NCBI RefSeq assembly: GCF_017488845.2
Contig: NZ_CP083371.1
Span: forward strand, 682,001 to 746,000
Source of the DNA: Ensifer canadensis
GTDB lineage: Bacteria > Pseudomonadota > Alphaproteobacteria > Rhizobiales > Rhizobiaceae
Reading direction: 5' to 3'
DNA length: 64,000 bases
Shown here piece by piece: positions 37,939 to 61,831 of the stretch (its first letter is position 1; the number at the start of each line of letters is the position of its first letter). A program made the translations under genes and the position numbers. A model generated the notes under the pieces. It saw only the letters and a program-made list of their open reading frames with translations. It did not search any database and was not told the DNA's origin.

Positions 37939-39141
37939 TCACGGTCGCGTCAGTAACATCGAGATGCCTTGTCCAACGCCAATACACATGGTGGCGACAG
38001 CTCGCCTTGCTCCTCGAAGTTCAAGTTCCAGTGCTGCGGTCAGCGCAAGGCGCGCACCGGACATGCCGAGAGGATGTCCCAAGGCAATGGCGCCGCCGTT
38101 GGGATTTACGTGGGCGGCATCATCTGCAAAGCCTAGCTGCCGCATGCAGGCGAGAGCCTGGGCTGCGAAAGCTTCATTGAGCTCGAGGATATCGATATCG
38201 CCGATGCCAACGCCGAGACGGTCCATGAGCTTTCTGGTGGAAAAGACGGGGCCCATGCCCATGACGCGTGGAGGAACCCCCGCCGTTGCCATCCCCTCGA
38301 CGCGAGCAAGTGGCGTGAGGCCGTAGTGTTCGACCGCGCGGCCTGAGGCAAGCAGAAGTGCGGCCGCGCCGTCGTTGACACCGGATGCATTGCCGGCTGT
38401 CACGGTGCCATTGGTGCGGAACGGCGTCGGCAGGCTGGCGAGCTTCTCGAACGTTGTCTCGCGCGGATGCTCATCCTCTAAGACGTGCGTCGTCTCGCCC
38501 TTGCGCCCTTTGATCGGATAGGGGGCGATTTCGCGCGCGAAGCGGCCATTCTTTTGCGCAGCCGCAGCGCGGGCCTGGCTGCGGAGTGCAAAGCCGTCCT
38601 GGTCCGCGCGCGAGATATCAAACTCGGCTGCAACGTTTTCGGCGGTCTCCGGCATGGACTCGATGCCGTACCGTTCTTGCATGACCGGATTGACGAACCG
38701 CCAGCCGATCGTTGTGTCGTGTACTTCGGTGCTGCGTTGGAAGGCGTTTTGGGCCTTCGGCATGACGAAAGGCGCGCGCGACATGCTTTCGACGCCACCG
38801 GCAATCACGACTTCCGCCTCGCCGAGCCGGATCGCGCGTGCGGCGTAACCGACGGCATCCAGCCCCGAGCCGCAAAGCCGGTTGATCGTCGTGCCAGGAA
38901 CCGCGTCCGGCAATCCGGCAAGCAAGGCGGCCATGCGGGCCACGTTGCGGTTGTCTTCGCCCGCCTGGTTGGCACAACCGAAGACGACCTCATCGATCGC
39001 TTCGGCCGGTACCGACGCGACGCGCGCCAGCGCGTCGCGGATTACGTGCGCGGCGAGGTCGTCGGCACGGGCGACCGACAAAGCGCCGCCGTATCGGCCG
39101 ATGGGCGTGCGGACGCCATCAATGATATAGGCCTCGCTCAT
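37939..39141 (-). CDS. Acetyl-CoA C-acyltransferase (3-oxoadipyl-CoA thiolase-like)
   Basis: 400 residues. Thiolase with all catalytic parts: nucleophilic Cys in NRLCGSGLDAV (~residue 90), NEAFAAQAL, the general base His in GGAIALGHPLGMSGARL and the second Cys in CIGVGQG. The sequence RYGGALSVARADDLAA and EVHDTTIGWRFVNPVM places it in the PcaF/PaaJ 3-oxoadipyl-CoA thiolase group. As last gene of the anthraniloyl-CoA operon it probably cleaves the final beta-ketoacyl-CoA of the opened ring, though it could also serve the pca pathway, which lacks its own thiolase here. Its ATG overlaps the preceding stop by 4 nt. Confidence 0.88.
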   Translation of the reverse strand: MSEAYIIDGVRTPIGRYGGALSVARADDLAAHVIRDALARVASVPAEAIDEVVFGCANQAGEDNRNVARMAALLAGLPDAVPGTTINRLCGSGLDAVGYAARAIRLGEAEVVIAGGVESMSRAPFVMPKAQNAFQRSTEVHDTTIGWRFVNPVMQERYGIESMPETAENVAAEFDISRADQDGFALRSQARAAAAQKNGRFAREIAPYPIKGRKGETTHVLEDEHPRETTFEKLASLPTPFRTNGTVTAGNASGVNDGAAALLLASGRAVEHYGLTPLARVEGMATAGVPPRVMGMGPVFSTRKLMDRLGVGIGDIDILELNEAFAAQALACMRQLGFADDAAHVNPNGGAIALGHPLGMSGARLALTAALELELRGARRAVATMCIGVGQGISMLLTRP

Positions 39142-41117
39142 GATTTCAGGTCCTTGCCTTGCTGCGCGGTAAACATCGGCCCGCCCTTGTGGGCCGGAAA
39201 GCCGTAACCGTTGATCATCACCAGATCGATGTCGCCGGGGCGCGCGGCGATGCCTTCGGCCAGCAGCGCCGTTCCTTCATCGACCATCGCCTTCAAAAGC
39301 CGGCCCATGATCTCTTCGGCAGTGATGGCTCGCGGCGTGATGTTCTTGGCGGCGCGCGCCGCCTTGATCATCGCCGTCACTTCCGGATCGACGGTGCGCT
39401 CGCCGTTGGGGTAGGCGTACCAGCCGCGGCCACTCTTGCGGCCAAGACGGCCCGCCTCGCAAAGCCTATCGGCGATCTCGACATAACGTGCGGCAGGATC
39501 CCGCGTCGCGGCCTGCCGCTTCCGGCGCGCCCAGGCGATCTCCAACCCGGCCATGTCATTGACGGCGAAGATGCCCATCGGAAAACCGTAAGCTTCGAAG
39601 GCGGCGTCGATCTCGTCGGGCACGGCGCCATCCTCGAGCATCAACTCTGCCTCGCGACGATAGGCGGAGAAGATGCGGTTGCCGATGAAGCCCTCGGTAA
39701 CGCCGCAGACGACGGGTAACTTGCCCAGGCGTTTGACGAAGGCGAGTGCACTCGCCAGCACATCGGGTGCGGTCTTGGCGCAATCGACGACTTCGACAAG
39801 CCGCATGACATTGGCGGGTGAGAAGAAGTGCAATCCGACCACCCGCGTCGGATCGGTCGTCGCCGCGGCGATCACGTCGGGATCGAGGTAGCTGGTGTTG
39901 GTTGCCAAAATGGTGCCTGGCGCAAGGATGCCGTCGAGCCGGCGAAACAGGTCCATCTTGACCTGGAGGTCGTCGAACACCGCTTCGATGACGAGATCAA
40001 CGGTGGCGAGGTCTGCCGCTTCAGCGGTGGTCTGTAATCTGGCGAGGCAGTCGTCGCGTCCATCCTGGCCCATCCGTCCGGAGCGGACGGTTTTGTCGAG
40101 TGTCTCGGCAATGCGGTCGCGCGCGCCGGCTGCTGCTTCCTTTGTCTGTTCCAAAGCGATGACGCGACAGCCGCTGATCAGGGCGGAGACCGCAATGCCT
40201 GCCCCCATCAGCCCCGCGCCGACCACCGCAACTGTCTCGATTCTGCGTGGCGAGACTGTCTCTAACCCTTCGATCTTGCCGGCGGCGCGTTCGGCAAAGA
40301 ATACGTGCAGCAGGGCAGCGGACTCGACGGAGTCGCGTAAACGCAGGAATGTGCAGCGTTCTTCCGCCAATCCCTGTTTCAGATCGACTTGACCGGCCGC
40401 CTTGACGAGACGTACCGCCTCGACCGGAGCGGATTGGCCGCGGGCTCGCGCCAGGACCTTCGCCTCCGCCGCGCTGACGGCTGCTGCGTCCACCGTCGGG
40501 ACCGCCATCAAGCCGGTGCGACGGAGCGGCTTTGCACCCAGTTCGCGCAGGAGCGTAAGGGCGGCGGCTACAGGGTCCGCGGCGGTGCCATCGGCAAGGC
40601 CGAGTGCGACAGCTTCGCTCACGTTGACGGTGCGCCCCGTTCCGATGAGATCGATGGCCGCGATCGTGCCGATCAGCCGTGGCAGGCGTTGTGTCCCGCC
40701 AGCACCCGGAACGATGCCGAGCTTCACTTCGGGCAGTCCGAACGCGGCCTTTTCTCCAGCTATGCGACCGTGGCAGGCGAGCGCCACCTCGCAGCCTCCG
40801 CCAAGGGCGGAGCCATTCACCGAGCAGACGACCGGCTTTTCGAAAGTCTCGATGCGATCGATCACCTCGGGAAGCATCGGCTCCATGGGCGGTTTGCCAA
40901 ACTCCTTGATATCAGCACCGCCGATAAACGTGCTGCCCGCACCGGTGATCACGAGACCGGTAATCGTCGGAAGGTCAGTAGCATGATCCAAAGCAGCCAT
41001 CAGGCCGGACCTGACATGCGCCGACAGCGCGTTGACGGGCGGGTTGTCGATGGTGACGACGAGAGCACCTTGTTCCCGACGGGCGGAAACGCTCTGCGAA
41101 AATCTGATCTCTGGCAT
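39138..41117 (-). CDS. FadJ/FadB-like enoyl-CoA hydratase/3-hydroxyacyl-CoA dehydrogenase
   Basis: 659 residues. Residues ~1-185 are a crotonase domain (ITGAGSTFIGGADIKEFG and GEKAAFGLPEVKLGIVPGAGGTQRLPRL). From ~285 follows a 3-hydroxyacyl-CoA dehydrogenase: Rossmann motif VVGAGLMGAGIA, catalytic HFFSPANVMRLVEVV, GFIGNRI, then the C-terminal domain (AVNDMAGLEIAW...GRKSGRGWYAY). Such fusions run two steps of beta-oxidation. In this operon it would act on the linear dicarboxyl-CoA product after ring opening. The ATG at 41117 has GAGGA ~9 nt upstream; a TTG at 41132 is unlikely. Confidence 0.88.
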   Translation of the reverse strand: MPEIRFSQSVSARREQGALVVTIDNPPVNALSAHVRSGLMAALDHATDLPTITGLVITGAGSTFIGGADIKEFGKPPMEPMLPEVIDRIETFEKPVVCSVNGSALGGGCEVALACHGRIAGEKAAFGLPEVKLGIVPGAGGTQRLPRLIGTIAAIDLIGTGRTVNVSEAVALGLADGTAADPVAAALTLLRELGAKPLRRTGLMAVPTVDAAAVSAAEAKVLARARGQSAPVEAVRLVKAAGQVDLKQGLAEERCTFLRLRDSVESAALLHVFFAERAAGKIEGLETVSPRRIETVAVVGAGLMGAGIAVSALISGCRVIALEQTKEAAAGARDRIAETLDKTVRSGRMGQDGRDDCLARLQTTAEAADLATVDLVIEAVFDDLQVKMDLFRRLDGILAPGTILATNTSYLDPDVIAAATTDPTRVVGLHFFSPANVMRLVEVVDCAKTAPDVLASALAFVKRLGKLPVVCGVTEGFIGNRIFSAYRREAELMLEDGAVPDEIDAAFEAYGFPMGIFAVNDMAGLEIAWARRKRQAATRDPAARYVEIADRLCEAGRLGRKSGRGWYAYPNGERTVDPEVTAMIKAARAAKNITPRAITAEEIMGRLLKAMVDEGTALLAEGIAARPGDIDLVMINGYGFPAHKGGPMFTAQQGKDLKS

Positions 41118-41128
41118 GTCGGCAATCC

Positions 41129-41524
41129 TCAATCGGGGATGACGGCCGTGACCTGGATTTCGATCTTGGCCCGGTCTTCGACCAGCGCGACCACCTGCAT
41201 TGCCGCCATTGCAGGGAAGTTCCTGCCGATGATGTCGCGGTAGGCTTGGCCGATACCGCGGAGGTTACCGATATATTCCTGCTTGTCGGTGAAGTACCAG
41301 GTCATCGTCGTGATGTGGTGCGGCTCCGCCCCCCCGGCGGCGAGCACCGCGACCACATTTTTCAGAGTCTGACGGACCTGCTCGACGAAATCATCGGTTT
41401 CGAACTCGGAGCGCTCGTTCCAGCCGATCTGACCGCCGACGAAGAGAGTGCGGCCCTTCGCAGCGACGCCGTTGGCATAGCCGATGGGCTTTGCCCAACC
41501 TTCAGGTTGCAGGATGGTGTGCAT
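41129..41524 (-). CDS. RidA-family enamine/imine deaminase
   Basis: 131 residues of the RidA/YjgF family. Segments LFVGGQIGWN, FVEQVRQTLKNVVAVLAAGGAEPHHITTMTWYFTD and IGRNFPAMAAMQVVALVEDRAKIEIQVTAVI match the fold; the conserved Arg of RidA proper seems replaced, so it is one of the divergent subfamilies found in catabolic operons. RidA proteins hydrolyse enamines/imines to carbonyl plus ammonia. The ring product of 2-aminobenzoyl-CoA is a vinylogous enamine, so this gene is a logical place for loss of the amino group. The next gene's ribosome site spans its stop. Confidence 0.8.
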   Translation of the reverse strand: MHTILQPEGWAKPIGYANGVAAKGRTLFVGGQIGWNERSEFETDDFVEQVRQTLKNVVAVLAAGGAEPHHITTMTWYFTDKQEYIGNLRGIGQAYRDIIGRNFPAMAAMQVVALVEDRAKIEIQVTAVIPD

Positions 41525-41616: not shown

Positions 41617-42813
41617 TTATCGTGCCGTGCCCTTCATCAGCTCGCGGCCGATGATGAGCTTTTGAACTTCGGTCGCGCCCTCGTAGATGCGCAGCGCACG
41701 GATCTCACGATAGAGCCGCTCCGTGATCTCGCCGACGCGTACCCCCCGACCGCCGAAGAGCTGCAGCGCCTGGTCGATGACCCACTGCGCATTCTCCGTC
41801 GCCGTCATCTTGGCCATTGCCGCCTCGCGAGTCGTCGGCCGCTTTTGCACGTCGCGTTGCCACGCCGTGCGGCAGGTCAGAAGGGCTGCGGAGTCGATCG
41901 CCGTTGCCATCTCACCGAGTGTGCTTTGCGCGGTCGGCAGGTCGGCAAGCGTTGCGCCAAACATCTTGCGGTTCTTCGCATGTGCCACCGCCTCGTCGAG
42001 CGCGCGACGGGCAAAGCCGATCGCGGCGGCAGCGACGGATGGGCGGAAGATGTCGAGCGTGCGCATGGCGATCTTGAAGCCTTCGCCCGGGCTGCCGAGA
42101 AGCTGTGACGACGGAATACGGCAATTGTCGAAACGAAGCCGGGCGAGCGGATGCGGCGCAATCGTCTCGATGCGCTCGGCGATCGTGAAGCCCGGCGTGT
42201 CGGCAAAGACCACGAAGGCGGATATGCCACGCGTGCCGGGCGCCTCGCCGGTGCGGGCAAAGACAGTGTAGACGTCGGCGATGCCTCCGTTCGAGATCCA
42301 GGTCTTCTCGCCGTCTAGCACGAAATGGTCGCCGTCGCGGCGCGCCGCACAGGCCATCGCCGCAACATCCGAGCCCGCATCGGGTTCGGAAAGCGCAAAG
42401 GCGGAGATGCACTCGCCGCGGGCGACCTTGGGCAGGGTGGCCTGCTTCAGCGCCTCGGAGCCGGAAAGGCTGATCGCGCCAGTCCCCAGCCCCTGCATGG
42501 CGAAGGCGAAGTCGGCAAGCCCGTCGGTATAGGCGAGCGTTTCGCGGATGAGGCAAAGCGATCGGCTGTCGATGTCTTCGCTCGTACCGCCGAACGCCTT
42601 CGGCACGCAATGGCGAAGTACGCCTGCAGCGCCGAGCGCAGCGACCAGATGTTTGCAGGCGGCATCCACATCCCGGTGATCGACTTCGCCAAGACCGCCG
42701 CCGGCAACGAAGCCGTCCAATTCGGCGGCAAGCGCGCGATGCCTATCCTCGTAGAATGGCCAGTCGAGATGGTCGCGGGTTGGTGGGTGCAAAGCCGTCT
42801 CATGGGAACTCAT
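41617..42813 (-). CDS. Acyl-CoA dehydrogenase
   Basis: 398 residues. FAD enzyme of the acyl-CoA dehydrogenase family. Readable: the flavin-binding stretch [35 protein letters not shown], the [16 protein letters not shown] region, LQLFGGRGV and the catalytic Glu in [17 protein letters not shown]. Cytoplasmic, passing electrons to ETF. In the operon it probably oxidises the reduced cyclic or opened CoA ester. Start ATG 42813 has GGGA nearby and lies 2 nt after the preceding stop. Confidence 0.88.
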
Positions 42814-42815
42814 GC

Positions 42816-43658
42816 TCAATTCCCTTTGAATTCCGGCTTCGCCTTGGCGGCAAAGGCCTCGAAGGCGCGGCGGAAGTCGCCGGTCGCCATGCAGATCGCT
42901 TGGGCCTGCGCTTCCGCTTCGATCAGCTGATCGATGCCCATCGCCCATTCCTGGTCGAGCATCTTCTTGGTCATTGCGTGAGCGAACCAGGGGCCATCGG
43001 CGATCGTGCGTGCGAATTTCTGCGCCTCGGCAAGCAGCGACGGACGCTCGTGGAGGGCGTTGTAGAAGCCCCAGGCGTGGCCCTCGGTCGCGGTCATGAC
43101 CCGTCCGGTGAAGAGCAGTTCGGCGGCACGGCCCTGGCCGATAATGCGGGGAAGGATGCCGCAGGCGCCCATGTCGGCGCCGGCCAGCCCGACGCGGGTG
43201 AAGAGAAACGCCGTCTTCGCCTCCGGCGTTGCCACGCGGAAGTCGGAAGCCATCGCCAGGATGGCGCCGGCACCGGCGCAGATGCCGTCGACGGCTGATA
43301 TGACGGGCTGCGGGCAGGCGCGGATCTGGCGCACCAGTTCGCCGGTCATACGGGTGAAATCAAGCAGATCCGGCATCGACATGCGCGTCAGCGGCTCGAT
43401 GATCTCGAAGACGTCGCCGCCGGAGGAGAAGTTGTCGCTGGCGCCGGTCAGCACCACGGCGCGCACATCGCTGGCGCGACCAAGCGCCCGGAAGAGATCG
43501 CAAAGCTCCTCGTAACTTTCGAAGGTCAGTGGGTTCTTCTTTTCCGGACGGTCGAGCGTGATCGTGGCGACCCGGCCGTCGGCGTCCGTTTCGAACAGGA
43601 AGTGCTTGGCCTTATGGTCTTTGAAGGCGCGCTTCTTGGCCTGCATCGGGTTTGTCAT
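42816..43658 (-). CDS. Enoyl-CoA hydratase/isomerase family protein
   Basis: 280 residues. Crotonase fold: [23 protein letters not shown], oxyanion loop segments [18 protein letters not shown] and [21 protein letters not shown], then [39 protein letters not shown]. The catalytic acids of true hydratases are at least partly replaced (GADMGA), and such members act as hydratases, isomerases or ring hydrolases on CoA esters. Here it may add water to the dearomatised ring. GGAGG 6 nt before the ATG at 43658; the 107-codon open frame upstream is antisense noise. Starts 2 nt after the SDR stop. Confidence 0.86.
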
Positions 43659-43660
43659 GT

Positions 43661-44437
43661 CTATCCTCCGAGAACTTCGCCGCCCGCCACTGGGATGGCC
43701 TGGCCGGTGATCGCGGTTGCCTTCTCCGACACGAGCCAGGAGACCGTGTGTGCGACCTCGTCGGGCGTCACCAGGCGCCCTTGCGGATTGGAACGGGCAA
43801 GGCTGGCGCGCGCTTCCTCGCGCGAACGGCCAGTCTTCTCGCTGATCGTGTCGAGCGCACCGTCGATGAGTGGCGTGTCGGTGAACCCCGGGCAGACGGC
43901 ATTGACGGTCACGTCGGTGCGGGCAAGTTCGAGCGCCAGCGCCCGCGTCAGGCCGATGACGCCGTGTTTCGAGGCGCAATAGGCTGAAACATAGGCGTAA
44001 CCGGTGAGGCCCGCGGTGCTTGCGACATTGACGATCCGGCCGTTGCCGGCCCGGCGCACGGAGGCAAGGGCTGCCTGCGTCACAAGAAACACCCCGGTCA
44101 GGTTGACCGTGAGCACTCGTTGCCAGAGTGAAAGATCGGTTTTCTCGAACGGCGCCGAAGGAGCCTCGCCGGCGCAGTTGACGAGAACCGCAATCTCTCC
44201 GCTCTTCGCAATCGCAGCCGAAATGCCTTGCTCGACCGCTGCCGGGTCAGTCACATCGAACTCATGGTGGACGTGGGCTTCGCCGCCTGATGAGTGGATT
44301 TCCTCTTTCACGGCTTCGAGCGGCGCGGCGCGGCGCCCCACAAGGCTGACGATATGGCCATCGGCTGCGAGTGCAAGCGCGATCGCCTTGCCGATGCCGC
44401 TTCCGGCGCCCGTGACGAGGGCGTGTCTGCGGTTCAT
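43661..44437 (-). CDS. SDR-family 3-hydroxyacyl-CoA dehydrogenase-like oxidoreductase
   Basis: 258 residues. SDR with [16 protein letters not shown] at the N-terminus, VNCAG, the catalytic [23 protein letters not shown] and PGFTDTP. The residue pattern after strand 2 (VGRRAAP) suggests NADP. In the operon it follows the fused monooxygenase/reductase gene, overlapping it by 4 nt, so it probably reduces or oxidises a ring alcohol/ketone of the CoA-bound intermediate. Confidence 0.85.
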
Positions 44438-46755
44438 GGCTTGCCTACCGTCGTTGCGGCGCGCGCCAGATTGTTCACATATTGCGCGCGGGCGGAGTGG
44501 TATTGCTTTGGCCAGGGCTGCCCGTCATAGCCGATCTTCGCCGCCTCGTGCATGACGAAGGACGGGTCGGCCAGATGCGGACGCGCAATTGCGCAGAGGT
44601 CGGCACGGCCGGCCGCAATGATGGAATTGGCGTGGTCGGCTTCGGAAATCGCTCCGACGGCGATGGTCGGAACCTGGATCTCGTTGCGGATCTTGTCGGA
44701 AAATGGTGTCTGGAACAGCCGGCCGTAAACCGGTTTTTCTTCCTTCACCACCTGACCGGAGGAGCAGTCGATCATATCGGCGCCGGCTTCCTTGAACAGG
44801 CGGGCGAAAATCGCCGCATCGTCAGGAGTGTTGCCGCCTTCGTGCCAGTCGTGCGTCGAAAGGCGCACCGACATCGGTCGGTCCTCGGGCCACGCCTTAC
44901 GGATCGCGTGGAACACTTCGAGCGGAAAGCGGGCGCGGGACGCATGGTCGCCGCCATAGTCGTCCGTGCGGAGGTTGGTGAGCGGCGACAGGAAGCTCGA
45001 CAGCAGGTAGCCGTGCGCCACGTGCAGTTCGAGGATGTCGAAACCGAGGTCACGGGCGCGTCCGGTCGCCTGCACGAAGTCGGCGACGACGCGGTCCATG
45101 TCGGCTCGGGTCATTTCGCGCGGCGTATCCGAATGCGCGAGGTAAGGCAGGGCCGACGCGGAAATGAGCGGCCAGGCGCCCTCGTTCAAGGGCTGGTCGA
45201 TCCCCTCCCAGGCCAATTTGGTCGCACCTTTTCTTCCGGCATGCCCGAGCTGGATGCCGATCTTGGCAGGCGTCTGCTGGTGCACGAAATCGACGATGCG
45301 CTTGAAGGCCAACGTCTGTTCGTCGTTCCAGAGTCCCAAGCATCCGGGCGTGATGCGGGCGTCAGGCGACACGCAGGTCATTTCAGGAAAAACGAGGGCC
45401 GCGCCGCCCATGGCGCGCGCACCGAGATGCACCAGGTGAAAGTCGTTGGGCACGCCGTCGGTCGCCGAATACATCGCCATTGGCGAAACGACGATGCGAT
45501 TCCTGAGCGTCAGGCCGCGAAGCTTGAAAGGCGTGAACATCGGCGGGGGAACCGTGCCATTCGACGCCGGCTCGGCGCCGGCACGTTCGGCGAACCAGCG
45601 TTCGAAACCTTCGAGCCAGTCCTTGTCGCGAAGGCGAAGATTCTCGTGGCTGATACGCTGTGAGCGGGTCAGCATCGAATACATGAATTGCTCCGGCTCC
45701 AGCGTATCGGCATAGCGCGTGCCGGCGACTTCGAACCACTCCATCGCATTGCGCGCCGCATTTTGGATGCGGGCGACATCAACCCGGCGTATCTCCTCGT
45801 AAGCCGCGAGCACAGCCGGGATGTTGGCTTCGTCGTGGCCGAGGATATCGAATTGTCGGGTAAGCTCGATGGCGTCATCGATCGCAAGCTTGGTGCCCGA
45901 GCCGATGGCGAAATGCGCCGTGTGGGCGCTGTCCCCCATCAAGACGACGTGGCTATTGCCGTTGAAGTGGCTCCACTTCTCGCAAATCAGCCGGCCGAAG
46001 TTCAGCCAGGCAGAGCCGCGCATATGGCGCGCATTGGTCATCAGCTTATGGCCGTCGAGCGTCTCGGCAAAGAGTTTTTCGCAGAACTCAATCGACTGCT
46101 GCTGGTCCATATGGTCGAGACCATGGGCCTGAAAGACGTCATCCGTGGTTTCGACGATGAAGGTCGAAGTGTTCTCATCGAAGCGGTAGATATGCGCCTG
46201 GAACCAGCCGTGTTCGGTGCGTTGGAAGTCGAAGGTGAAGGCGTCGAAGCGCTTGTCCGTGCCGAGCCAGACATAACGGTTTGGCCGAACGACCATGTCG
46301 GGTTGGAATACGTCGGCGTATCTATTGCGGATCCTCGAGTTGACGCCGTCGGAGGCGATGATGAGGTCCGCATCGGCGAATTCCTCGTCGCTTTCGACGT
46401 CGTGCTCGAACGCGAGTTCGACACCGAGTTCGAGGCAGCGATCCTGGAGGATATTGAGCATCTTCTTGCGGCCGATGCCGACGAAGCCGTGGCCCGTCGT
46501 CCTGATCTTACGGCCCTTGAAAACCAGTTCGATGTCGTCCCAGTGGTTGAAAGCGACCTCGATCGCCTCGGCAGTCTCCGGATCCCATTGGCGCATCGAC
46601 TGCATCGTCGCATCCGAGAAGACCACCCCCCACCCGAAGGTGTCGAAGGCGCGGTTCCGCTCGACGACCGTTATGCGGTGTTCCGGGTGCTGGCGCTTCA
46701 TCAGCAGCGCAAAATAGAGGCCGGCTGGCCCGCCACCGATACAGACGATCCGCAT
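44434..46755 (-). CDS. Fused FAD monooxygenase / OYE reductase (2-aminobenzoyl-CoA monooxygenase/reductase-like)
   Basis: 773 residues and two enzymes in one chain. Residues ~1-390 are a class A flavoprotein hydroxylase: FAD motif [12 protein letters not shown] motif [12 protein letters not shown] motif [21 protein letters not shown]. Residues ~410-770 are an old-yellow-enzyme barrel: [46 protein letters not shown] and an FMN-binding [14 protein letters not shown]. This is the architecture of 2-aminobenzoyl-CoA monooxygenase/reductase from Azoarcus evansii; annotators also call it bifunctional salicylyl-CoA 5-hydroxylase. The CoA ligase and kynurenine genes nearby favour 2-aminobenzoyl-CoA. 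GGGAGGAG precedes the ATG at 46755. First gene of a seven-gene operon. Confidence 0.88.
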
Positions 46756-46853
46756 GTCGTTCTCCTCCCGAGCTCCGGCTGCGTGTGTCACCGTCCAGAT
46801 GTCGTCGACCGTCATCCCGGACTGCGAGGAGCAGGGTGGACTCGTTCCAGAGA

Positions 46854-46871
46854 AATTTCAAGCTTAAAATT
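46854..46871. promoter_or_regulatory. Dyad operator in the promoter of the aminobenzoyl-CoA operon
   Basis: AATTTCAAGCTTAAAATT is an 18-bp palindrome with one mismatched pair, ~100 bp before the fused monooxygenase start and next to the MarR-type gene. Its core TTTCAAGCnTAAA recurs in the ligase/formamidase intergenic region (60898-60924). MarR proteins bind palindromes of this size, so the MarR regulator next door is the likely owner. Confidence 0.6.
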
Positions 46872-53617: not shown

Positions 53618-54304
53618 TTAGACGCCGAGATAGCGATCCTGAAGCGCCGGCGTCAGCGCTGCCGGCGATCCCGTGAACACCGTCGCGCCCTTCTCCAGCA
53701 CGAAGCAGCGGTCGGCGAGGGGTAGCAATTCCGAAAGCGTCTTGTCGACGACGAGGATCGATTGGCCGGCCGTCTTCAGCGTACGGATCGCCGACCAGAT
53801 GTCCTGCCGGATCACTGGCGCCAGGCCCTCGGTCGCCTCGTCCAGAATGAGCAGGCTGGGATTGGTCATCAGCGCCCGGCCGATGGCAAGCATCTGCTGC
53901 TCGCCACCGGAAAGCGTATTGGCATATTGGTCGCGCCGTTCGCCGAGGCGGGGAAAGAGCGCGACCACCTTCTCCAAGGTCCACTCGCTGCCACGAGCGG
54001 TGGCAACGAGGTTTTCCATGACGGTGAGGTTCGGGAAGCAGCGCCGTCCTTCGGGCACGAGGCCAAGGCCGAGTCTGGCGATCCGGTGCGGCCGCATGCC
54101 GAAGATCGCCTTGCCCGCGAAGCTGATCACACCTGAGCGCGGGCGCACGAGGCCGAGGATGGAGTTGATCGTCGTCGTCTTGCCCATGCCGTTGCGGCCC
54201 ATGAGCGCAACCACTTCGCCCTCCCGCACATCGAGATTGACGCCGAAGAGCGCCTGGGAAGCGCCATAGAAGGTTTCGAGACCTTTTAGTTCCAGCAGGC
54301 TCAC
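53618..54304 (-). CDS. Branched-chain/aromatic amino-acid ABC transporter ATPase (LivF type)
   Basis: 228 residues. LivF-class ATPase: Walker A GRNGMGKTT, signature LSGGEQQMLAIGRAL, Walker B LLILDEATEGLAP, switch region ILVVDKTLSELLPLAD where the usual His is replaced by Asp/Lys. The loss of the switch His (VDKT in place of VEQN/VTH) is common in LivF. Overlaps the LivG stop by 4 nt (ATGA). Last gene of an operon starting with the CoA ligase and tryptophan dioxygenase, so the transporter probably imports tryptophan or a related aromatic. Confidence 0.88.
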   Translation of the reverse strand: MSLLELKGLETFYGASQALFGVNLDVREGEVVALMGRNGMGKTTTINSILGLVRPRSGVISFAGKAIFGMRPHRIARLGLGLVPEGRRCFPNLTVMENLVATARGSEWTLEKVVALFPRLGERRDQYANTLSGGEQQMLAIGRALMTNPSLLILDEATEGLAPVIRQDIWSAIRTLKTAGQSILVVDKTLSELLPLADRCFVLEKGATVFTGSPAALTPALQDRYLGV

Positions 54305-55050
54305 GCGGCTTCTCCCAGGTAGGCGCGGCGCACTTCCGGGTCGCTGCGTATTTCCTCGACCGTGCCCGTCGCGATGATGCGGCCATAGACAAGCACGGAT
54401 ATCCGATCCGCCAGTGCAAAGACCGCGTCCATGTCGTGCTCCACAAGCAGCATCGGTGCCTGCTGGCGCAACCCATCGAGGAAAGACGTCAGCCGTTTGG
54501 AGCCCTCCGGCCCCATGCCGGCCATCGGCTCGTCGAAGAGGAAGGCCTTCGGCGAAAGCGCCAGCGCAATGGCGATTTCAAGCTGCCGGCGTTCTCCGTG
54601 CGAGAGTTCGGCTGCGGGTACATGGGCGCGCGCGGCGAGGTCGACGCGCTCCAGCATCGCCATTGCCGGTTCGGTCAGGTCCTTGTCATCGACCACCTGG
54701 CGAAAGAAACGAAAGCTGCTGCCACGGCTTGCCTGCACCGCTAGCATGACGTTGCGAAGGGCCGAGAACTCCTGCGCCAGCGAGGAGATCTGGAAGCTGC
54801 GCGCAAGTCCAAGCCTCGCACGGGCGGCCATGTCGTGCCCGCTGATGTCCTGACCGAGAAAGCGGATCGTCCCGCTGTCGGCCTTGAGCGAGCCGGCGAT
54901 CTGGTGGATCAGCGTGCTTTTTCCGGCGCCGTTCGGACCGATCAGCGCATGGATTTGTCCCGGGTGAAGCTCGAGGCTCACCCCGTCGGTGGCCTTGAGC
55001 GCGCCGAAGGATTTTCTGAGGTCGCGGATTTCAAGAATTGGCTCAGACAT
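54301..55050 (-). CDS. Branched-chain/aromatic amino-acid ABC transporter ATPase (LivG type)
   Basis: 249 residues. Walker A GPNGAGKST, SLARSFQISSLAQEFSALRNVMLAVQ after the Q-loop (typical LivG insertion), signature LSHGERRQLEIAIAL, Walker B AFLFDEPMAGMGPEG and switch VEHDMDAVFALADRISVL. Partner of the LivF ATPase. ATG at 55050; the open frame upstream overlaps the permease gene and is not used. Begins 8 nt before the LivM stop. Confidence 0.88.
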   Translation of the reverse strand: MSEPILEIRDLRKSFGALKATDGVSLELHPGQIHALIGPNGAGKSTLIHQIAGSLKADSGTIRFLGQDISGHDMAARARLGLARSFQISSLAQEFSALRNVMLAVQASRGSSFRFFRQVVDDKDLTEPAMAMLERVDLAARAHVPAAELSHGERRQLEIAIALALSPKAFLFDEPMAGMGPEGSKRLTSFLDGLRQQAPMLLVEHDMDAVFALADRISVLVYGRIIATGTVEEIRSDPEVRRAYLGEAA

Positions 55051-56014
55051 GGCGCGGCTTTCCCGAGAGCAGGCCCAGCAGCCCTCCGCGTGCAAAAAGC
55101 ACGATGCCGAGCAGGATGAGGCCGAGGAAGAACTGCCAGCGCTCGGTGATGCCGCCGAGCACATATTCGAAGAACACGAAGATCATGGCGCCGGCGACGG
55201 GCCCGAACAGCCGGCCCTTGCCGCCGAGAATGATGAGAACGATCAGTTCGCCCGACATGTGCCACGACAGCATCGAAGGGCCGACGAAGCGATTGAGATC
55301 GGCATAGAGCGCACCGGCAAATCCGGTGATCATCGCGGAGGCTGCGAAGGCGACGAGCCGGATGTTGAAGGGCGCGATGCCGACGGCGGCAAGGCGCGTT
55401 CCGTTCTGTCGCGCTGCCTGCAGTGCGCTGCCGAACCGCGAGCCCTCGACGATGCGGAACAGGAGAAGCGTTGCCATCAGAGCGGCGTAGCAGACCAGGA
55501 AATAGGGCAGGGGCTTGGCGGTATTGACGCCGGGAAAGGCGTTGCGCACCGACATCGACAAGCCGTCTTCGCCACCATAGGCCGGCCAGGAGATCGCGAA
55601 ATAGTAGATCATCTGCGCGAAGGCGAGGGTGATCATGATGAAATAGACGCCTGTCGTGCGCAGGCTGATCGCACCGATGGGCAACGCAACGAGCCCTGCG
55701 ACCACCACCGCCGTTATCCAGATGAGTGGCATCGATGTGGTTGCCGGAATGTCGGCGAACAGCGGTTCGCCATTGAAGGCGTGCGTCGCAAGGATACCGG
55801 CGACATAGCCGCCGAGGCCGAAGAAGGCTGCATGGCCGAAGGAAAGCAGCCCGCCGAGCCCGAGCGCCAGGTTGAGGCCGACGGCGGCAAGTGCCAGCAC
55901 GGCGACGCGGGTTGCAAGCGTCACATAGAAGGGCTCGCCCATGCCGACGGCGACAAGCGGTGCGCCGAGTAGGAGGAGCGCCAGAAGCAGATTGACTGTC
56001 GTTTCGCGGTTCAT
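55043..56014 (-). CDS. Branched-chain/aromatic amino-acid ABC permease (LivM type)
   Basis: 323 residues with 8-10 hydrophobic segments. LivM marks: LGGLLSFGHAAFFGLGGYVAGIL near residue 60 and the cytoplasmic coupling loop RFGSALQAARQNGTRLAAVGIAPFNIRLVAFAASA. A gap of 7 bp separates it from LivH. It pairs with LivH to form the channel of the importer. Confidence 0.88.
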   Translation of the reverse strand: MNRETTVNLLLALLLLGAPLVAVGMGEPFYVTLATRVAVLALAAVGLNLALGLGGLLSFGHAAFFGLGGYVAGILATHAFNGEPLFADIPATTSMPLIWITAVVVAGLVALPIGAISLRTTGVYFIMITLAFAQMIYYFAISWPAYGGEDGLSMSVRNAFPGVNTAKPLPYFLVCYAALMATLLLFRIVEGSRFGSALQAARQNGTRLAAVGIAPFNIRLVAFAASAMITGFAGALYADLNRFVGPSMLSWHMSGELIVLIILGGKGRLFGPVAGAMIFVFFEYVLGGITERWQFFLGLILLGIVLFARGGLLGLLSGKPRHV

Positions 56015-56021
56015 CGGGACC

Positions 56022-56975
56022 TCACGACTGCGCGGCAAACAGGCCGCTCGGCCTGAAGGCGAGGATGAGGGCCATGACGACATAGATCAGCATCGAGGCC
56101 AGCGCCGCCCCGATCGTGGTTGCCTGCGATGCGGGCATGGTCAATGCCAGCAGCGAGGGCAGCAGGAAGCGGCCCATGGTATCGACGACCCCGACGATCA
56201 CAGCGCCGACGAGCGCACCCTTGATGGAGCCGATGCCGCCGATGACGATGACGACGAAGGCGAGGATAAGCACCGGTTCGCCCATTCCGACCTGCACCGA
56301 CTGGAGCGCCCCGACCAAGGCGCCGGCAAGACCCGCAAGGGCTGCGCCGAGCGCAAAGACGACTGTGTAAAGCGTGCCTATATCGACGCCGAGCGCTGCG
56401 ATCATCTCGCGGTCCGACTCGCCCGCCCTGATGCGCATGCCGAGCCGGGTCCTGGAGATCAGCAGATAAAGGCTGACGGCAACCGCGATGCCGACGCCGA
56501 TGATCGCCAGGCGATAGAGCTGATACTGACCGCCGCCAGGGAGCGGCACAGCGCCCTGAAGCAGGGGCGGTATATCGAGATAGAGCGGGAACGAGCCGAA
56601 AATCCAGCGCGCACCTTCGGACAGGATCAGGATCAGCGCGAAGGTGGCAAGCACCTGATCGAGATGATCACGGTCGTAGAGCCTGCGGATGACGGCGACC
56701 TCGATGATCGCACCGACGCCGGCGGCGGCCGTGAGGCTGGCGATCAGCCCCAGCCAGAAGGAGCCGGTCGCGGCTGCGACGGTGGCGCAGGCGAAGGCGC
56801 CGATCATGTAGAGCGAGCCATGGGCGAGATTGATCAGACCCATGACGCCGAAAATCAGCGTCAGGCCGGCGGCCATCAGAAACAGCATCACGCCGAGCTG
56901 GAGCCCGTTGAGCAGTTGTTCGATCAGGAGTGCGGTGAACAAGAGACCGGTCCAAGCTTGGTGTGAGGGGCGCAT
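56022..56975 (-). CDS. Branched-chain/aromatic amino-acid ABC permease (LivH type)
   Basis: 317 residues, about eight membrane segments. Characteristic LivH motifs: LLNGLQLGVMLFLMAAGLTLIFGVMGLINLAHGSLYMIGAF near the start and the loop SRTRLGMRIRAGESDREMIAALGVDIGTLYTVVFALGAALAGLAGALVG with the coupling Glu/Ser segment. Follows the binding-protein gene by 60 bp. Confidence 0.88.
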   Translation of the reverse strand: MRPSHQAWTGLLFTALLIEQLLNGLQLGVMLFLMAAGLTLIFGVMGLINLAHGSLYMIGAFACATVAAATGSFWLGLIASLTAAAGVGAIIEVAVIRRLYDRDHLDQVLATFALILILSEGARWIFGSFPLYLDIPPLLQGAVPLPGGGQYQLYRLAIIGVGIAVAVSLYLLISRTRLGMRIRAGESDREMIAALGVDIGTLYTVVFALGAALAGLAGALVGALQSVQVGMGEPVLILAFVVIVIGGIGSIKGALVGAVIVGVVDTMGRFLLPSLLALTMPASQATTIGAALASMLIYVVMALILAFRPSGLFAAQS

Positions 56976-57035: not shown

Positions 57036-58175
57036 TTACATCCCGCACTTCTCGGCGTAGGCATCCTTGTGATGCTCGAAGGCAGTCGCGATGATCTTGT
57101 TGGTCAGGACGCCGTCATCTTCCTTCACCACCTCGCGAACGTAGATGTTCTGGATCGGGTGGTTGTTGTTGTTGAAGGCGAACTCGCCGCGCACGGACTT
57201 GAAATCCGCTGCCTTGAGCGCCGCACGGAAGGCGTCCTTGTCCTTGACGCTCGCCTTTGAAAGCGCTGCGAGGATCAGGTTCGCCGTATCCCAGCTCTGC
57301 GCCGCGTAGATCGAGGGCAGGCGCTTGTACTCGGCCTTGAAGGCTTCGACGAATTTCTTGTTGGCTTCGTTGTCGAGATCCTTGGACCAGGTCGCCGAAT
57401 TCTTGACGCCAAGGGCCGCGTCGCCGATCGCCGGCAGAACGTCCTGGCTAAAGGAGAACCCGGGCCCCATAACCGGGATGCCGACGCCCGACTGGGCATA
57501 TTGCTTCATGAAAGCGATGCCCATGCCGCCGGGCAGGAAGAAATAGACGCTATCGGCACCGGAGGCGCGGATCTGGGCGATCTCCGCGGCATAGTCCGTC
57601 TGGCCGACCTGGGTATAGATCTCGCCGGCAAGGTCGCCCTTGTAGTAGCGCTTGAAGCCGGTCAGCGCGTCCTTCCCGGCCGGATAGTTGGGCGCCAGGA
57701 CAAAGGCGTTCTTGTAGTCTTTGTTGGCGTATTGTCCCATCGCCTCATGGAAGTTGTCGTTCTGATAGGCGACGTTGAAATAGTTCGGGTTGCAGTTCGC
57801 ACCGGCAAGTGCCGAAGGGCCGGCATTGGGCGAGAGATAGATCACGTCCTGTGCTACCGCGTTCGGAACGACGGCCATGGCGAGGTTCGACCAGATGATC
57901 CCTGTCATCAGGTCGACCTTGTCGCCCTGGATCATCTTCTCGGCGATCTGCACCGCAAGTTCCGGCTTCTGGGCATCGTCTTCGATCACCAGCTCGACGT
58001 CCTTGTTGCCCGATTGCTTGATCGCAAGCGTGAATGCGTCGCGCATGTCGATGCCGAGACCGGCGCCGCCGCCCGAAAGCGTGGTGATGACGCCGATTTT
58101 CACCGGCTCGGCGTAGGCAAGGCTCGACGTCGCAAGCACGAGGCCAAAAACGCTCGCTGCCAGAATGCGGTTCAT
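57036..58175 (-). CDS. Branched-chain/aromatic amino-acid ABC transporter substrate-binding protein (LivK type)
   Basis: 379 residues. Signal peptide (ILAASVFGLVLATSSLAYA) then the type I periplasmic fold: VKIGVITTLSGGGAGLGIDMRDAFTLAIKQ, IYLSPNAGPSALAGANCNPNYFNVAYQND, KDALTGFKRYYKGDLAGEIYTQ. The family includes binding proteins for branched-chain amino acids and for aromatics; the neighbours (tryptophan dioxygenase, CoA ligase) suggest an aromatic ligand such as tryptophan or anthranilate. GGAGGAG before the ATG; 42 bp after kynA. Confidence 0.88.
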   Translation of the reverse strand: MNRILAASVFGLVLATSSLAYAEPVKIGVITTLSGGGAGLGIDMRDAFTLAIKQSGNKDVELVIEDDAQKPELAVQIAEKMIQGDKVDLMTGIIWSNLAMAVVPNAVAQDVIYLSPNAGPSALAGANCNPNYFNVAYQNDNFHEAMGQYANKDYKNAFVLAPNYPAGKDALTGFKRYYKGDLAGEIYTQVGQTDYAAEIAQIRASGADSVYFFLPGGMGIAFMKQYAQSGVGIPVMGPGFSFSQDVLPAIGDAALGVKNSATWSKDLDNEANKKFVEAFKAEYKRLPSIYAAQSWDTANLILAALSKASVKDKDAFRAALKAADFKSVRGEFAFNNNNHPIQNIYVREVVKEDDGVLTNKIIATAFEHHKDAYAEKCGM

Positions 58176-58217: not shown

Positions 58218-59054
58218 TCAGAGACCTGTGCGCACATGCCAGAGCTCTGGGAAGAGTTCCACCTCGAGCATCTTCTTGAGGTAGGACGCGCCGGATGTTC
58301 CCCCGGTTCCGCGTTTCATGCCGATGATGCGCTCCACCGTCGTGACGTGGTTGAAGCGCCATCGACGGAAGTAATCCTCGAAATCGACCAGCTTCTCGGC
58401 GAGCTCATAGAGCATCCAGTAGCGCTCGGGATCGCGGTAGACCGTCTGCCAGGCCGCAAAGACCTTGTCGCTTTCCGTGCGCGTTTCGCGCCAATCCGTC
58501 CTGTCTGCTTCCTCGCCGACATCGAACCCTTTGCGAGACAGGAGCCGGATCGCCTCGTCATAGAGCGACGGTGCGGCTAAGATCGCTTCCAGCTTTTTAA
58601 GGGTCTCGGGACGATGCGTGTGTGGTCCGAGCATGGCGACGTTGCGATTGCCGGCGAGGAACTCGATCGCCCGGTATTGCCACGACTGGAAGCCGGATGA
58701 CTGCCCCAGAGACTCGCGGAACTGCGTGTATTCGCTGGGCGTCATCGTGCGAAGCACGTCCCAGGCGCTGTTCAACTGTTCGAAGATGCGCGCCACGCGC
58801 GTCAGCATCTTGAAGGCGGGTTCCAGCCGGTCTTCACGGATCGACCGGACAGCCGCGTTGATCTCGTGCAGCGCGAGTTTCATCCAGAGTTCAGACGTCT
58901 GATGCTGAATGATGAACAGCATCTCGTCATGAGCCTTTGAGAGCGGCTCCTGTGCGTCCAGCACTTTCTCCAGCATGAGGTAGTCGCTGTAGGACATGCG
59001 CCCCTTAAACGACATCTGGGCGCCTTCCTTGGAAGGATCGTATGGTTCGCTCAT
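58218..59054 (-). CDS. kynA: Tryptophan 2,3-dioxygenase
   Basis: 278 residues, bacterial TDO length. Heme enzyme opening the indole ring of L-tryptophan to N-formylkynurenine. Typical segments: [41 protein letters not shown] (distal pocket His), [51 protein letters not shown] (proximal heme His and substrate carboxylate loop) and [11 protein letters not shown]. It starts right after the ligase stop (2 nt gap), showing direct coupling of the first pathway step to the CoA-activating step. Confidence 0.95.
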
Positions 59055-59055
59055 T

Positions 59056-60675
59056 TCAGTTCTCCAACCGCAATCGGAACCGCTGGATCTTGCCCGTGGC
59101 TGTCTTCGGCAGGCTGTCCAGGAATTTTACCGACCGTGGATATTTGTAGGGCGCGATCGTCGCCTTCACGTGATCCTGCAAGCGCTTGATCGTCGCCTCG
59201 TCTGCCGACACGCCGGCCGACAGCACGACGTAGGCCTCGACGATCTCGCCGCGCTCGGCGTCGGGTGCACCGACGACGGCACACTCAACGACTTCCGGAT
59301 GCGAGATCAAGGCCGCTTCGACTTCTGGGCCGGCGATGTTGTAGCCCGCGGTTATGATCATGTCGTCGGATCGGGCGGCGAAATGGAAGAAGTCGTCCTC
59401 ATCCTGATAGAAGGCGTCACCCGTGAGATTCCAGCCATCGCGGACATAGTCACGCTGGCGCGGATCGGCCATGTAGCGGCAGCCGGTCGGGCCGCGCACT
59501 GCAAGCTTGCCGATCGTGCCGCGAGGAACTTCCTGCATCTCGTCGTTGACGATCCGTGCTTCGTAGCCACCGACGGGCTTCCCGGTCGAGGCGGCCTTGC
59601 GGTCCTCGAACCGGTTGGAAATGAAGATGTGCAGCATCTCTGTCGCGCCGATCCCGTCGAGGATCGGCTTGCCAGTCTTGTTCGTCCATTCCTCGAAGAC
59701 GGGGCCCGGCAGTGTCTCGCCGGCCGAAATTGCAACCCGCAGAGACGAAAGGTCCGCGCCGTTGTCCATCGCCTTCATCATCGCCCGATAGGCGGTAGGG
59801 GCGGTGAACGAGATCGTTGCTTTGTATTTCTCGATAATCTCCACCATGTTCGCGGGCGTCGCGTGCTCAAGAAGCGTTGCTGCCGCCCCGAAGCGTAAGG
59901 GAAAGATCGCAAGGCCACCGAGGCCGAAGGTGAATGCAAGTGGAGGCGAGCCGACAAAGATATCGTCGGGTGTGACCCCTAGGACTTCGCTGGCGTAGCC
60001 GTCTGCGATCATCATCAGATCGCGATGGAAGTGCATGGTTGCCTTCGGGATCCCGGTCGTGCCCGAGGTGAAACCGAGAAGCGCCACGTCGTCCCGACCG
60101 GTGTGCACCGCCTCGAAGAGGACGGATTTGTCGAGTGCAATCCGGTCAAGTTCAGCGTCGTGGTTTGCAGTCCCGTCGAAGCTGACGACCTGTTTCAGGT
60201 AGCGGCTATCCTTTGCGCAGGCGACCATCTCGTCCATCAGACGTGTGTCACAGAGCGCCAGGCTGATCTCGGCCTTGTCGATGATCTTGGTCAGCTCTCC
60301 GGCTCTGAGCATCGGCATCGTGTTGACGACGACGGCGCCGGCCTTGGTGGCTGCCAACCAACAGGCGACCATGGCGGGGTTGTTGGCCGAGCGTATGAGC
60401 ACGCGATTGCCCGGTCTGACGCCGTAATTCTCGACAAGCGCATGGGCCAGCCTGTTCGTCCAGTCGGAAAGTTCCTTGTACGTTCGCCGACGACCGTTGC
60501 CGATCAGGGCGGTGTGGTCGCCAAAGCCCTTGGCGACCATGGCGTCGGTCAGTTCGACGGCGGCGTTGAGGTGGTCCGGATAGTTGAAGCCTTCGAGAAG
60601 GAAGTCTGGCCATTCTTCCGGCGGAGGCAGATGGTCACGGGTAAACGTATCGACGTGTGAAGTCGGTCCAAGCAT
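59056..60675 (-). CDS. Benzoate/2-aminobenzoate-CoA ligase family protein
   Basis: 539 residues from the ATG at 60675 ([11 protein letters not shown]); an ATG at 60720 would add 15. ANL-family adenylating enzyme: P-loop [56 protein letters not shown] (hinge Asp) and the C-terminal catalytic Lys in [12 protein letters not shown]-type pocket residues cannot be assigned from sequence alone. Closest to benzoate-CoA/2-aminobenzoate-CoA ligases. In this locus it should convert anthranilate from kynureninase to 2-aminobenzoyl-CoA. First gene of the operon ligase-kynA-LivKHMGF; divergent from the formamidase. Confidence 0.88.
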
Positions 60676-60897
60676 GTGGCGGCTAATCCCCTGTTCCGTT
60701 CCTGCCTGTTGCTCAGGCATTTTTAAAGCCGGCTATAATTCTTGCGTTCGTGCGGAGCCCGGCCGTGCAAACCGGTTGCGGGCGTCGCCGGATCGTTGCC
60801 GATGAAGCGCGTCGTCGCTGAGACGACTCCAATGATCGTGATAGGCACAGCGAGACCTCCACTTCTCGGCTGAACATGGGGCAGCATCGCACCGCTC

Positions 60898-60924
60898 AAA
60901 AACTATTTCAAGCCTAAAGTTTTT
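60898..60924. promoter_or_regulatory. Dyad operator between ligase and formamidase genes
   Basis: AAAAACT (60898-60904) and AGTTTTT (60918-60924) enclose ATTTCAAGCCTAA, which repeats the core of the palindrome at 46854-46871 (TTTCAAGCnTAAA). It sits in the shared promoter of the two divergent transcription units, so one repressor could control both, along with the aminobenzoyl-CoA operon 14 kb away. Confidence 0.6.
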
Positions 60925-61000: not shown

Positions 61001-61831
61001 ATGCTGGAACGCCGCATTACCGATTGGGACGACGCCTATGCGAATGGCTCGAATATCGCTCGTGGCAACCTATGGCCGGAAGCGTGGGTCAAGCCAGCCG
61101 AAGCCTTTCGCAGTGCCCTTCGGGCAGCGGGGCGTGCAAAACTCGACCTCAGCTATGGCGAGCGGACGAGAAACCGCATGGACCTGTTTTTCCCTGATGG
61201 CTCAGCCAAGGGCCTTGTCGTCTTCGTGCATGGTGGATACTGGCTGCAACTCGATAAGAGCTTTTGGTCGCATTTGGCCGCCGGCGCTGTTGCCAGCGGC
61301 TACGCCGTCGCCATCCCCTCGTACACGCTTTGCCCCGAAATTCGCATCGCTGGGATCGTCGAAGAGGTAGCTGCGGCCATCGGCGAGGCCTCGAAGCTGG
61401 TCGATGGGCCGCTGAATTTGACCGGGCATTCGGCCGGAGGGCATCTCGTCAGCCGGATGATCACGACGACCGCGCCGCTGGCGCCGCATGTACAGCAGCG
61501 GATTCGAAACGTCGTCTCGATCTCGGGCGTTCATGACCTGCGTCCGATCATGGCAACCACGATGAACGAGAGGCTTGCGATCGACGAGAGCGAGGCGCTT
61601 TCGGAAAGCCCGGCTCTGCTGCGCCCCATGGCAAATGCCCGCATCACCTGCTGGGTCGGGGGCGGCGAACGGGCCGAGTTCTTGCGCCAGAGCGCTCTGC
61701 TCGCCAATATCTGGACCGGACTGGGTGCAACAACGGCCGCGACCGCGGAACCGGACAAACATCATTTCAACGTTATCGACGGCCTCGCCGACGTCGGACA
61801 CGCCCTCACGCGGGTGCTGCTTTCGGAGTGA
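61001..61831 (+). CDS. Alpha/beta-hydrolase, probable N-formylkynurenine formamidase
   Basis: 276 residues. The oxyanion motif HGGYW (residue ~74 onward) and the nucleophile elbow GHSAGGHLVSRM identify the arylformamidase-type alpha/beta hydrolases related to eukaryotic AFMID, not the metal-dependent cyclase-like KynB more common in bacteria; a catalytic His is likely in DKHHFNVIDGL. It supplies the one kynurenine-pathway step otherwise missing from the region. AGGAGGA stands upstream of the ATG at 61001; earlier in-frame start 60929 would overlap the operator. Divergent from the CoA ligase. Confidence 0.82.
   Translation: MLERRITDWDDAYANGSNIARGNLWPEAWVKPAEAFRSALRAAGRAKLDLSYGERTRNRMDLFFPDGSAKGLVVFVHGGYWLQLDKSFWSHLAAGAVASGYAVAIPSYTLCPEIRIAGIVEEVAAAIGEASKLVDGPLNLTGHSAGGHLVSRMITTTAPLAPHVQQRIRNVVSISGVHDLRPIMATTMNERLAIDESEALSESPALLRPMANARITCWVGGGERAEFLRQSALLANIWTGLGATTAATAEPDKHHFNVIDGLADVGHALTRVLLSE

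Follow-up and report, generated by a model that had tools for sequence, protein, structure and literature searches.

From the gene content of positions 37939-61831 of the window, by which we mean the whole 64,000-nucleotide stretch of DNA analysed here from the soil bacterium Ensifer canadensis (contig NZ_CP083371.1), we propose that this locus is very probably catabolic: tryptophan or kynurenine would be converted, by way of anthranilate and its coenzyme A (CoA) ester, into central metabolites. Tryptophan 2,3-dioxygenase (TDO) would open the indole ring of tryptophan, an AFMID-type alpha/beta-hydrolase would remove formate, and kynureninase would yield anthranilate and alanine. A ligase would then convert anthranilate to anthraniloyl-CoA, which a candidate 2-aminobenzoyl-CoA monooxygenase/reductase (ACMR) would hydroxylate and reduce to 2-amino-5-oxocyclohex-1-ene-1-carboxyl-CoA. 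The remaining reactions would be deamination, ring opening and steps of the beta-oxidation type, with the short-chain dehydrogenase (SDR), hydratase, dehydrogenase, FadJ-like protein and thiolase as the likely enzymes; these substrates, and the order of the late steps, are what we infer from the genes. Of the two importers, the TrpXYZ-like one appears to belong with kynureninase and the Liv-type one with TDO and the ligase. The best lead of the locus is the role of its Rid protein, which lacks the arginine typical of RidA.

The genome comprises 8,094,229 bases in 6 contigs, and its closest named relatives are Ensifer and Sinorhizobium, with ACMR identities of 92-95% (loci L005-L011). Gene identities, gene order, conserved sites and co-occurrence were computed directly, genes being called with NCBIfam models at their curated cut-offs, Pfam domains and PDB sequence matches. 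By these means every gene that a first-pass annotation had named within 37939-61831 was found; its list had passed over one gene, encoding a pyridoxal phosphate (PLP)-dependent dehydratase (PALP), which follows kynU on the plus strand. The genes fall into four rows: ACMR-SDR-hydratase-acyl-CoA dehydrogenase-Rid-FadJ-thiolase, which correspond to the abm genes (minus strand); GntR and MarR (minus); trpX-ATPase-permease-kynU-PALP (plus); and ligase-TDO-livK-H-M-G-F (minus), with the hydrolase divergent from the ligase. Judged by strands and gaps, these rows would be operons. The features, some given as open reading frames (ORFs) and some belonging to ATP-binding cassette (ABC) importers, are as follows.

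37939-39141, minus strand: 3-oxoadipyl-CoA-type thiolase, PcaF/PaaJ-like (TIGR02430, 650.4 bits; cut-off 597)
39138-41132, minus strand: FadJ-like fused enoyl-CoA hydratase/3-hydroxyacyl-CoA dehydrogenase (3HCDH and ECH domains; under the FadJ equivalog cut-off)
41129-41524, minus strand: abm-type Rid protein whose Met106 stands where RidA has Arg105 (PF01042, alignments, phyletic match and model)
41617-42948, minus strand: acyl-CoA dehydrogenase ORF, domain from residue 69 (PF00441, PF02770, PF02771)
42816-43979, minus strand: enoyl-CoA hydratase family ORF (NF006107, 466.8 bits; cut-off 330); the family match begins at residue 111 and the start is probably near 43650
43661-44437, minus strand: SDR (PF00106)
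44434-46815, minus strand: ACMR candidate (NF006101, 1353.4 bits; cut-off 1078; FAD_binding_3 and Oxidored_FMN)
46856-46871, plus strand: operator-like site TTTCAAGCTTAAAATT, lying some 40 bp upstream of the ACMR ORF and probably bound by MarR
46976-47518, minus strand: MarR-family regulator (PF12802, PF01047)
47594-48370, minus strand: GntR/FCD-family regulator (PF00392, PF07729)
48400-48444, plus strand: two AT-rich boxes, CAAATATATATAG and AAAATATATATATTTG, a putative GntR operator; the second adjoins a TTGACA hexamer
48529-49509, plus strand: TrpX-like substrate-binding protein (PF04392, 181.8 bits; PDB 6hni, 3lkv, 3lft)
49552-50352, plus strand: TrpZ-like ABC ATPase (PF00005)
50358-51281, plus strand: TrpY-like ABC permease (PF02653)
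51297-52544, plus strand: kynureninase, kynU (TIGR01814, 364.7 bits; cut-off 246.4; PDB 1qz9, 481.5 bits)
52638-53609, plus strand: PLP dehydratase, PALP (PF00291; best PDB match 5cvc)
53618-54304, minus strand: LivF-like ABC ATPase (PF00005)
54301-55164, minus strand: LivG-like ABC ATPase ORF, start uncertain (PF00005, PF12399)
55043-56083, minus strand: LivM-like permease ORF, start uncertain (PF02653)
56022-56975, minus strand: LivH-like permease (PF02653)
57036-58175, minus strand: Liv-type substrate-binding protein, livK (PF13458; best PDB match 4evq)
58218-59054, minus strand: TDO (TIGR03036, 428.8 bits; cut-off 390.7; PDB 2nox, 369.9 bits)
59056-60720, minus strand: anthranilate (2-aminobenzoate)-CoA ligase candidate (TIGR02262, 380.6 bits; cut-off 375.25; best PDB match 4wv3)
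60906-60921, plus strand: operator-like site TTTCAAGCCTAAAGTT, between ligase and hydrolase
61001-61831, plus strand: alpha/beta-hydrolase, AFMID-type N-formylkynurenine formamidase candidate (PDB 2pbl and 4e11; HaHSL_fam)

The kynurenine and anthranilate-CoA halves are physically joined, as had been claimed, the ligase and TDO genes being separated by 1 bp and TDO and livK by 42 bp. In the whole genome nothing exceeded the cut-off for a KynB-type formamidase (TIGR03035, best 48.1 versus 223.05 bits) or for the large subunit of anthranilate 1,2-dioxygenase (best 119.5 versus 671.9 bits), and 3-hydroxyanthranilate dioxygenase had no match. The reading from tryptophan to anthraniloyl-CoA is supported by these absences, and the earlier proposal of a pathway through CoA esters gains from both the joined halves and the lack of a competing anthranilate outlet over cut-off in the genome.

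Within the tryptophan half, the alignment of TDO with 2nox covers almost the whole length. Kynureninase keeps W64, G281 and T282 of 1qz9, which we take to be the Pseudomonas fluorescens enzyme, and the human enzyme has H102, S332 and N333 at the aligned positions. Since these three positions presumably set the preference for kynurenine, the predicted enzyme is of the kynurenine-preferring type. The hydrolase matches PDB 2pbl with 263 bits and the kynurenine formamidase 4e11 weakly (65 bits); it is above the cut-off for the NCBIfam model HaHSL_fam, HGGYW and GHSAGG motifs were seen by eye, and its start is probably at 61001, not 60929. The TrpXYZ-type importer consists of PF04392, PF02653 and PF00005 proteins in a single gene row, and its TrpX-like member is homologous to 3lft and 6hni; tryptophan is a putative ligand. 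PALP shows the threonine dehydratase/serine racemase fold in its PDB matches and nothing more specific. Elsewhere in the genome (G000:C2:1310492-1311277, L003) a 279-amino acid ORF encodes a second, divergent TDO-like protein (TIGR03036, 190.9 bits against the cut-off of 390.7). Its neighbours are a 338-amino acid ORF to which Pfam gave no match and another that, by eye, resembles a LysR regulator.

In the CoA-ester half, ACMR is a FAD monooxygenase fused to an Old Yellow Enzyme domain, exceeding the NF006101 cut-off and carrying both domains by Pfam. NCBIfam names this model 'salicylyl-CoA 5-hydroxylase/oxidoreductase', a label and not a test, and the ligase falls within the benzoate-CoA ligase family, so that the two enzymes might instead act on salicylate or benzoate. 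The nearest solved relative of the ligase is, however, the anthranilate-CoA ligase 4wv3 (299.8 bits, versus 259.9 for the best benzoate-CoA ligase, 2v7b). Its segment AFTFGLGGL shares FTFG with 4wv3, the three benzoate ligases shown having FAYG, and recurs unchanged in 42 of the 44 ligase matches covering it (E 1e-40 or better and at least 300 aligned residues, others being dropped). The linked genes, moreover, form a beta-oxidation-type set (SDR, hydratase, acyl-CoA dehydrogenase, FadJ-like protein and thiolase) together with Rid, and linkage to TDO and kynureninase is conserved. Given the relatives of the ligase and the linked genes, we judge the salicylate or benzoate explanation, including the one suggested by the model name, to be highly improbable and retain anthranilate as the predicted substrate. 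As for the salicylyl-CoA/gentisyl-CoA route, no gentisate-side genes are among those called in the locus, no genome-wide search for them having been made. Upstream of the ligase, a conserved block at 60843-60873 on the minus strand shows, in 14 of 17 rows, a GGAGGT resembling a ribosome site and then a GTG. This GTG opens a short frame (41 codons long in the window) that encodes no conserved peptide; the block is possibly a leader or a sign that the ligase start is mis-set.

The arrangement recurs in relatives. Within 10 kb of ACMR, kynU and a Trp-type ATPase and permease are present in 13 genomes of Ensifer, Shinella and Aminobacter (L005-L017), and TDO stands between livK and the ligase in 13 of 13; TDO and ACMR are on contigs of equal length, apparently one and the same, in 12 of these, and on different contigs in L010/G155. 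Among 150 genomes of the order, matches over cut-off were found to ACMR in 43, to TDO in 24 and to kynureninase in 32. ACMR and TDO lay within 20 kb in six of the 150 and were joined by kynureninase in three, as counted by eye from matches over cut-off, a TDO-like match below cut-off near ACMR in G101 being left out. At the level of the phylum 398 genomes were sampled; 71 had ACMR (E 1e-200) and 95 had TDO (E 1e-60), and the two occurred together in 55, versus 16.9 expected (Fisher p 2.8e-27, relatedness uncorrected). TDO is thus carried by 55 of the 71 ACMR genomes: in many Pseudomonadota, tryptophan breakdown accompanies the CoA route for anthranilate, which has received little study. The two genes were at most 12 kb apart in 15 of the 55; TDO positions in genomes lacking ACMR were partly omitted from this distance step, as no pairing was possible there, and contig breaks may hide some linkage.

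Ten of these 15 joined regions were fetched and compared using the proteins of the window. TDO, ACMR, SDR, MarR, enoyl-CoA hydratase and ligase were matched in all ten (the SDR match in L127 being weak), and acyl-CoA dehydrogenase, Rid and kynureninase in nine each; in the region without Rid (L133) a Rid gene lies just past the fetched stretch (G399). The hydrolase was matched in five, the FadJ-like protein in three, trpX, livK and GntR in two each, the thiolase in one and PALP in none. From these counts, the joined core recurs, in the class of the window and at least one other class (G398), and the importers, GntR and PALP are local additions. The first-pass annotation had presented the two routes as joined here, and this joining is thus not unique to the locus.

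We propose that the two halves also share an operator. The sites TTTCAAGCTTAAAATT and TTTCAAGCCTAAAGTT both match TTTCAAGCNTAAARTT exactly and are its sole exact matches in the 8.09 Mb genome; with up to 2 mismatches the pattern gives 12 rows genome-wide (one being the first site on the other strand) versus 3 for the reversed pattern. A site with at most 1 mismatch precedes ACMR in 17 of 17 close loci (L005-L019, L048, L075) and lies beside the ligase and hydrolase in 16 of 16 (L106-L119, L019, L048). In Mesorhizobium composti (L075, L119) the ACMR and ligase/hydrolase groups are some 175 kb apart and the site is kept at both. Over 17 rows of the ligase/hydrolase region, the site is 98% conserved versus 66% for the surrounding sequence. 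Wider abm loci carry a related TTTTAAG-type site, which in 65 of 80 loci scores above every one of the locus's random windows, a result that is partly circular: since the weight matrix was built from six sites of close relatives of the window, the close-relative loci match it by construction. In L019, L048, L039 and L049 a high-scoring site elsewhere in the locus falls into the locus's own controls.

Based upon their positions, both sites are probably bound by MarR, which would probably repress the abm genes, the ligase-TDO-liv operon and the divergent hydrolase. The gntR-trpX intergenic region differs. With up to 3 mismatches allowed, no abm-type operator was found there in the window, and all 19 aligned regions of this kind, the window's among them, show a pair of AT-rich boxes of which the second lies close to TTGACA. 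These boxes are a putative GntR operator, and GntR probably controls trpXYZ-kynU-PALP; the pairing of regulators with sites, like the inducers, is what we infer. The earlier suggestion of one regulon is therefore supported only in part: the abm genes and the ligase-TDO-liv and hydrolase genes share the operator-like site, but a different box stands before trpXYZ-kynU. Because AT-rich boxes take the place of the abm-type site in the gntR-trpX region, we read the locus as two regulatory arms, and it thus predicts regulators and sites that are open to testing.

Each half has a known counterpart, compared here with the parts of the cited accounts that were covered. The aerobic hybrid 2-aminobenzoyl-CoA (abm) pathway of Azoarcus (Aromatoleum) evansii (Schuhle et al. 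2001, as described in PMC4539516) likewise uses a CoA ligase, a fused monooxygenase/reductase and beta-oxidation-type enzymes. Compared by description, the present locus differs in being joined to TDO, kynureninase and a formamidase candidate, and in having TrpXYZ-like and Liv-type importers and both MarR and GntR regulators. The kynurenine-anthranilate pathway kynBAU (Kurnasov et al. 2003, cited in PMC6210171, as is work in which the operon was expressed in E. coli) similarly leads by TDO, a formamidase step and kynureninase to anthranilate; here, in contrast, an AFMID-type alpha/beta-hydrolase would replace KynB, and anthranilate is expected to continue as its CoA ester, not via catechol. 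For Cupriavidus metallidurans CH34 kyn, abmG and abm genes are listed together (PMC8879955), giving the same overall route by gene content; that account is an inventory of central and peripheral pathways and, in the parts covered, states no joined locus or shared operator. Since Cupriavidus lists both halves and the joined locus recurs, we regard the present locus as a variant of known biology.

Several observations weigh against the proposed route and its regulation. C. metallidurans has kyn and abm genes yet fails to grow on anthranilate (PMC8879955), and gene content is therefore no proof of use. TDO is missing at E 1e-60 from 16 of the 71 ACMR genomes and ACMR from 40 of the 95 TDO genomes, and therefore neither half needs the other; moreover, in 40 of the 55 genomes that have the two, no single contig shows them 30 kb or less apart, and the co-occurrence counts include related genomes as they stand. 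In the vicinity of ACMR in five more distant joined clusters (L120-L124), the best operator-like matches carry 1, 3, 2, 2 and 3 mismatches, and regulators were assigned to sites by position. The ACMR genomes without TDO, together with published alternative feeders of anthranilate (PMC9613470, PMC3534580) and the separate regulator and AT-rich boxes of trpXYZ-kynU, which lacks an abm-type operator, are what would be expected if the anthranilate handled by the locus were taken up from outside or came by a different route (quinaldine, indole-3-acetate or indole), the tryptophan genes being neighbours with a separate purpose. Against this, TDO sits 1 bp from the ligase in one predicted operon under the abm-type operator-like site, ACMR and TDO co-occur far over expectation and are at most 12 kb apart in 15 sampled genomes, and kynureninase accompanies them in most of the fetched clusters. 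We therefore consider such separate purposes distinctly unlikely, and favour a single route from tryptophan or kynurenine.

The first-pass annotation had called the product of 41129-41524 RidA. It is a Rid-family protein (PF01042), but the catalytic, carboxylate-binding Arg105 of RidA is absent, Met106 taking its place. The alignment of abm-linked homologues gave Met at this position in 86 of 87 and Ile in one, these comprising 75 proteins from 80 ACMR loci and 12 from later loci, close relatives included. Met was likewise found in 30 of 30 later-fetched loci, some from the same genomes. By profile scoring, this Rid was present in 69 of the 71 ACMR genomes and in none of the 327 without ACMR, which are the informative control because the profile (A1) was built from ACMR-linked Rid proteins; in most genomes the ten best candidates of a first look were scored. 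A further Rid paralogue (family f35), scoring 108-135 bits against the abm-Rid profile, lies away from ACMR in genomes G035, G112, G143, G353, G370, G438, G440, G486, G516 and G534.

What this protein does may be sought in the product of ACMR, an enamine whose carboxyl is bound as a CoA thioester (PMC4539516, PMC3534580). We suggest, at about even chances, that the Met-for-Arg Rid group is a CoA-thioester enamine deaminase, converting 2-amino-5-oxocyclohex-1-ene-1-carboxyl-CoA to 2,5-dioxocyclohexane-carboxyl-CoA and releasing the ammonia of anthranilate. The arginine would be dispensable because the substrate carboxyl is bound as the CoA ester. AmnE, a Rid-family 2-aminomuconate deaminase with a free-carboxylate substrate, has Arg117 among its conserved cleft residues (PMC6742747), and this residue would correspond to Arg105. 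Arthrobacter Rue61a grown on anthranilate yielded a C7H8O4-CoA ester, perhaps cyclohexanedione-carboxyl-CoA (PMC3534580), as expected if deamination comes before ring opening. Spontaneous hydrolysis of the ACMR product, or another Rid role such as tautomerisation, is also possible.

RidA genes are known to cluster with threonine dehydratase and other PLP enzymes (PMC4433059), and with PALP present in the locus the Rid protein might be a general damage-control imine deaminase guarding KynU and PALP, without catalysing any step of the ring pathway. The phyletic pattern weakens this explanation: Rid follows ACMR, being found in 15 of the 16 ACMR genomes that lack TDO and in 0 of the 40 TDO genomes that lack ACMR, and within 10 kb of ACMR, Rid is present in 75 of the 80 loci, kynU in 15 and PALP in 11. 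The near-invariant Met in place of the essential arginine also argues against it, and we regard damage control as rather unlikely.

The deaminase proposal touches a wider question. In Rid4 and Rid7 the arginine is replaced by Trp, and in Rid5 and Rid6 it is variable (PMC4433059, PMC8113886), so that the abm-Rid group could lie in Rid5 or Rid6. In the accounts covered, the functions of Rid4-Rid7 'remain completely unknown' in 2015 (PMC4433059) and none had been shown to have deaminase activity as of 2021 (PMC8113886). The abm-Rid proteins resemble them in the fold, the retained Glu and the loss of Arg105, and differ in having Met at this position and in being tied to a single enzyme, ACMR. An Arg-less Rid matched to one enzyme and a precise substrate would make the Rid4-Rid7 question testable; if true, the proposal would assign a function to a Rid protein without the Arg and account for deamination in the pathway. 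No joined locus with a shared operator was found described in the literature covered, which left out most subscription journals; as far as these searches show, the operator common to both halves, the separate GntR arm and the match of ACMR with an Arg-to-Met Rid protein are new.

Some minor observations may be added. One of the ACMR loci, L039 (JAHREI010000003.1), belongs to a record of Bacillus subtilis SK6B4, yet the arrangement of its abm cluster resembles the one in Pseudochrobactrum kiredjianiae (L049); the record is probably mislabelled or contaminated. Directly beside the catabolic locus, at 34126-35917 on the plus strand, are homologues of QueC, QueD and QueE (queuosine precursor synthesis). 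A 4-hydroxybenzoate 3-monooxygenase is encoded at 18588-19826, plus strand (TIGR02360, 683 bits versus a cut-off of 538.7); a LysR gene and an MFS transporter lie close by. Finally, a 2162-amino acid ORF at 5618-12106, plus strand, contains 17 stretches of putative Ig domain (He_PIG), and its product is probably a large repetitive protein, surface or secreted.

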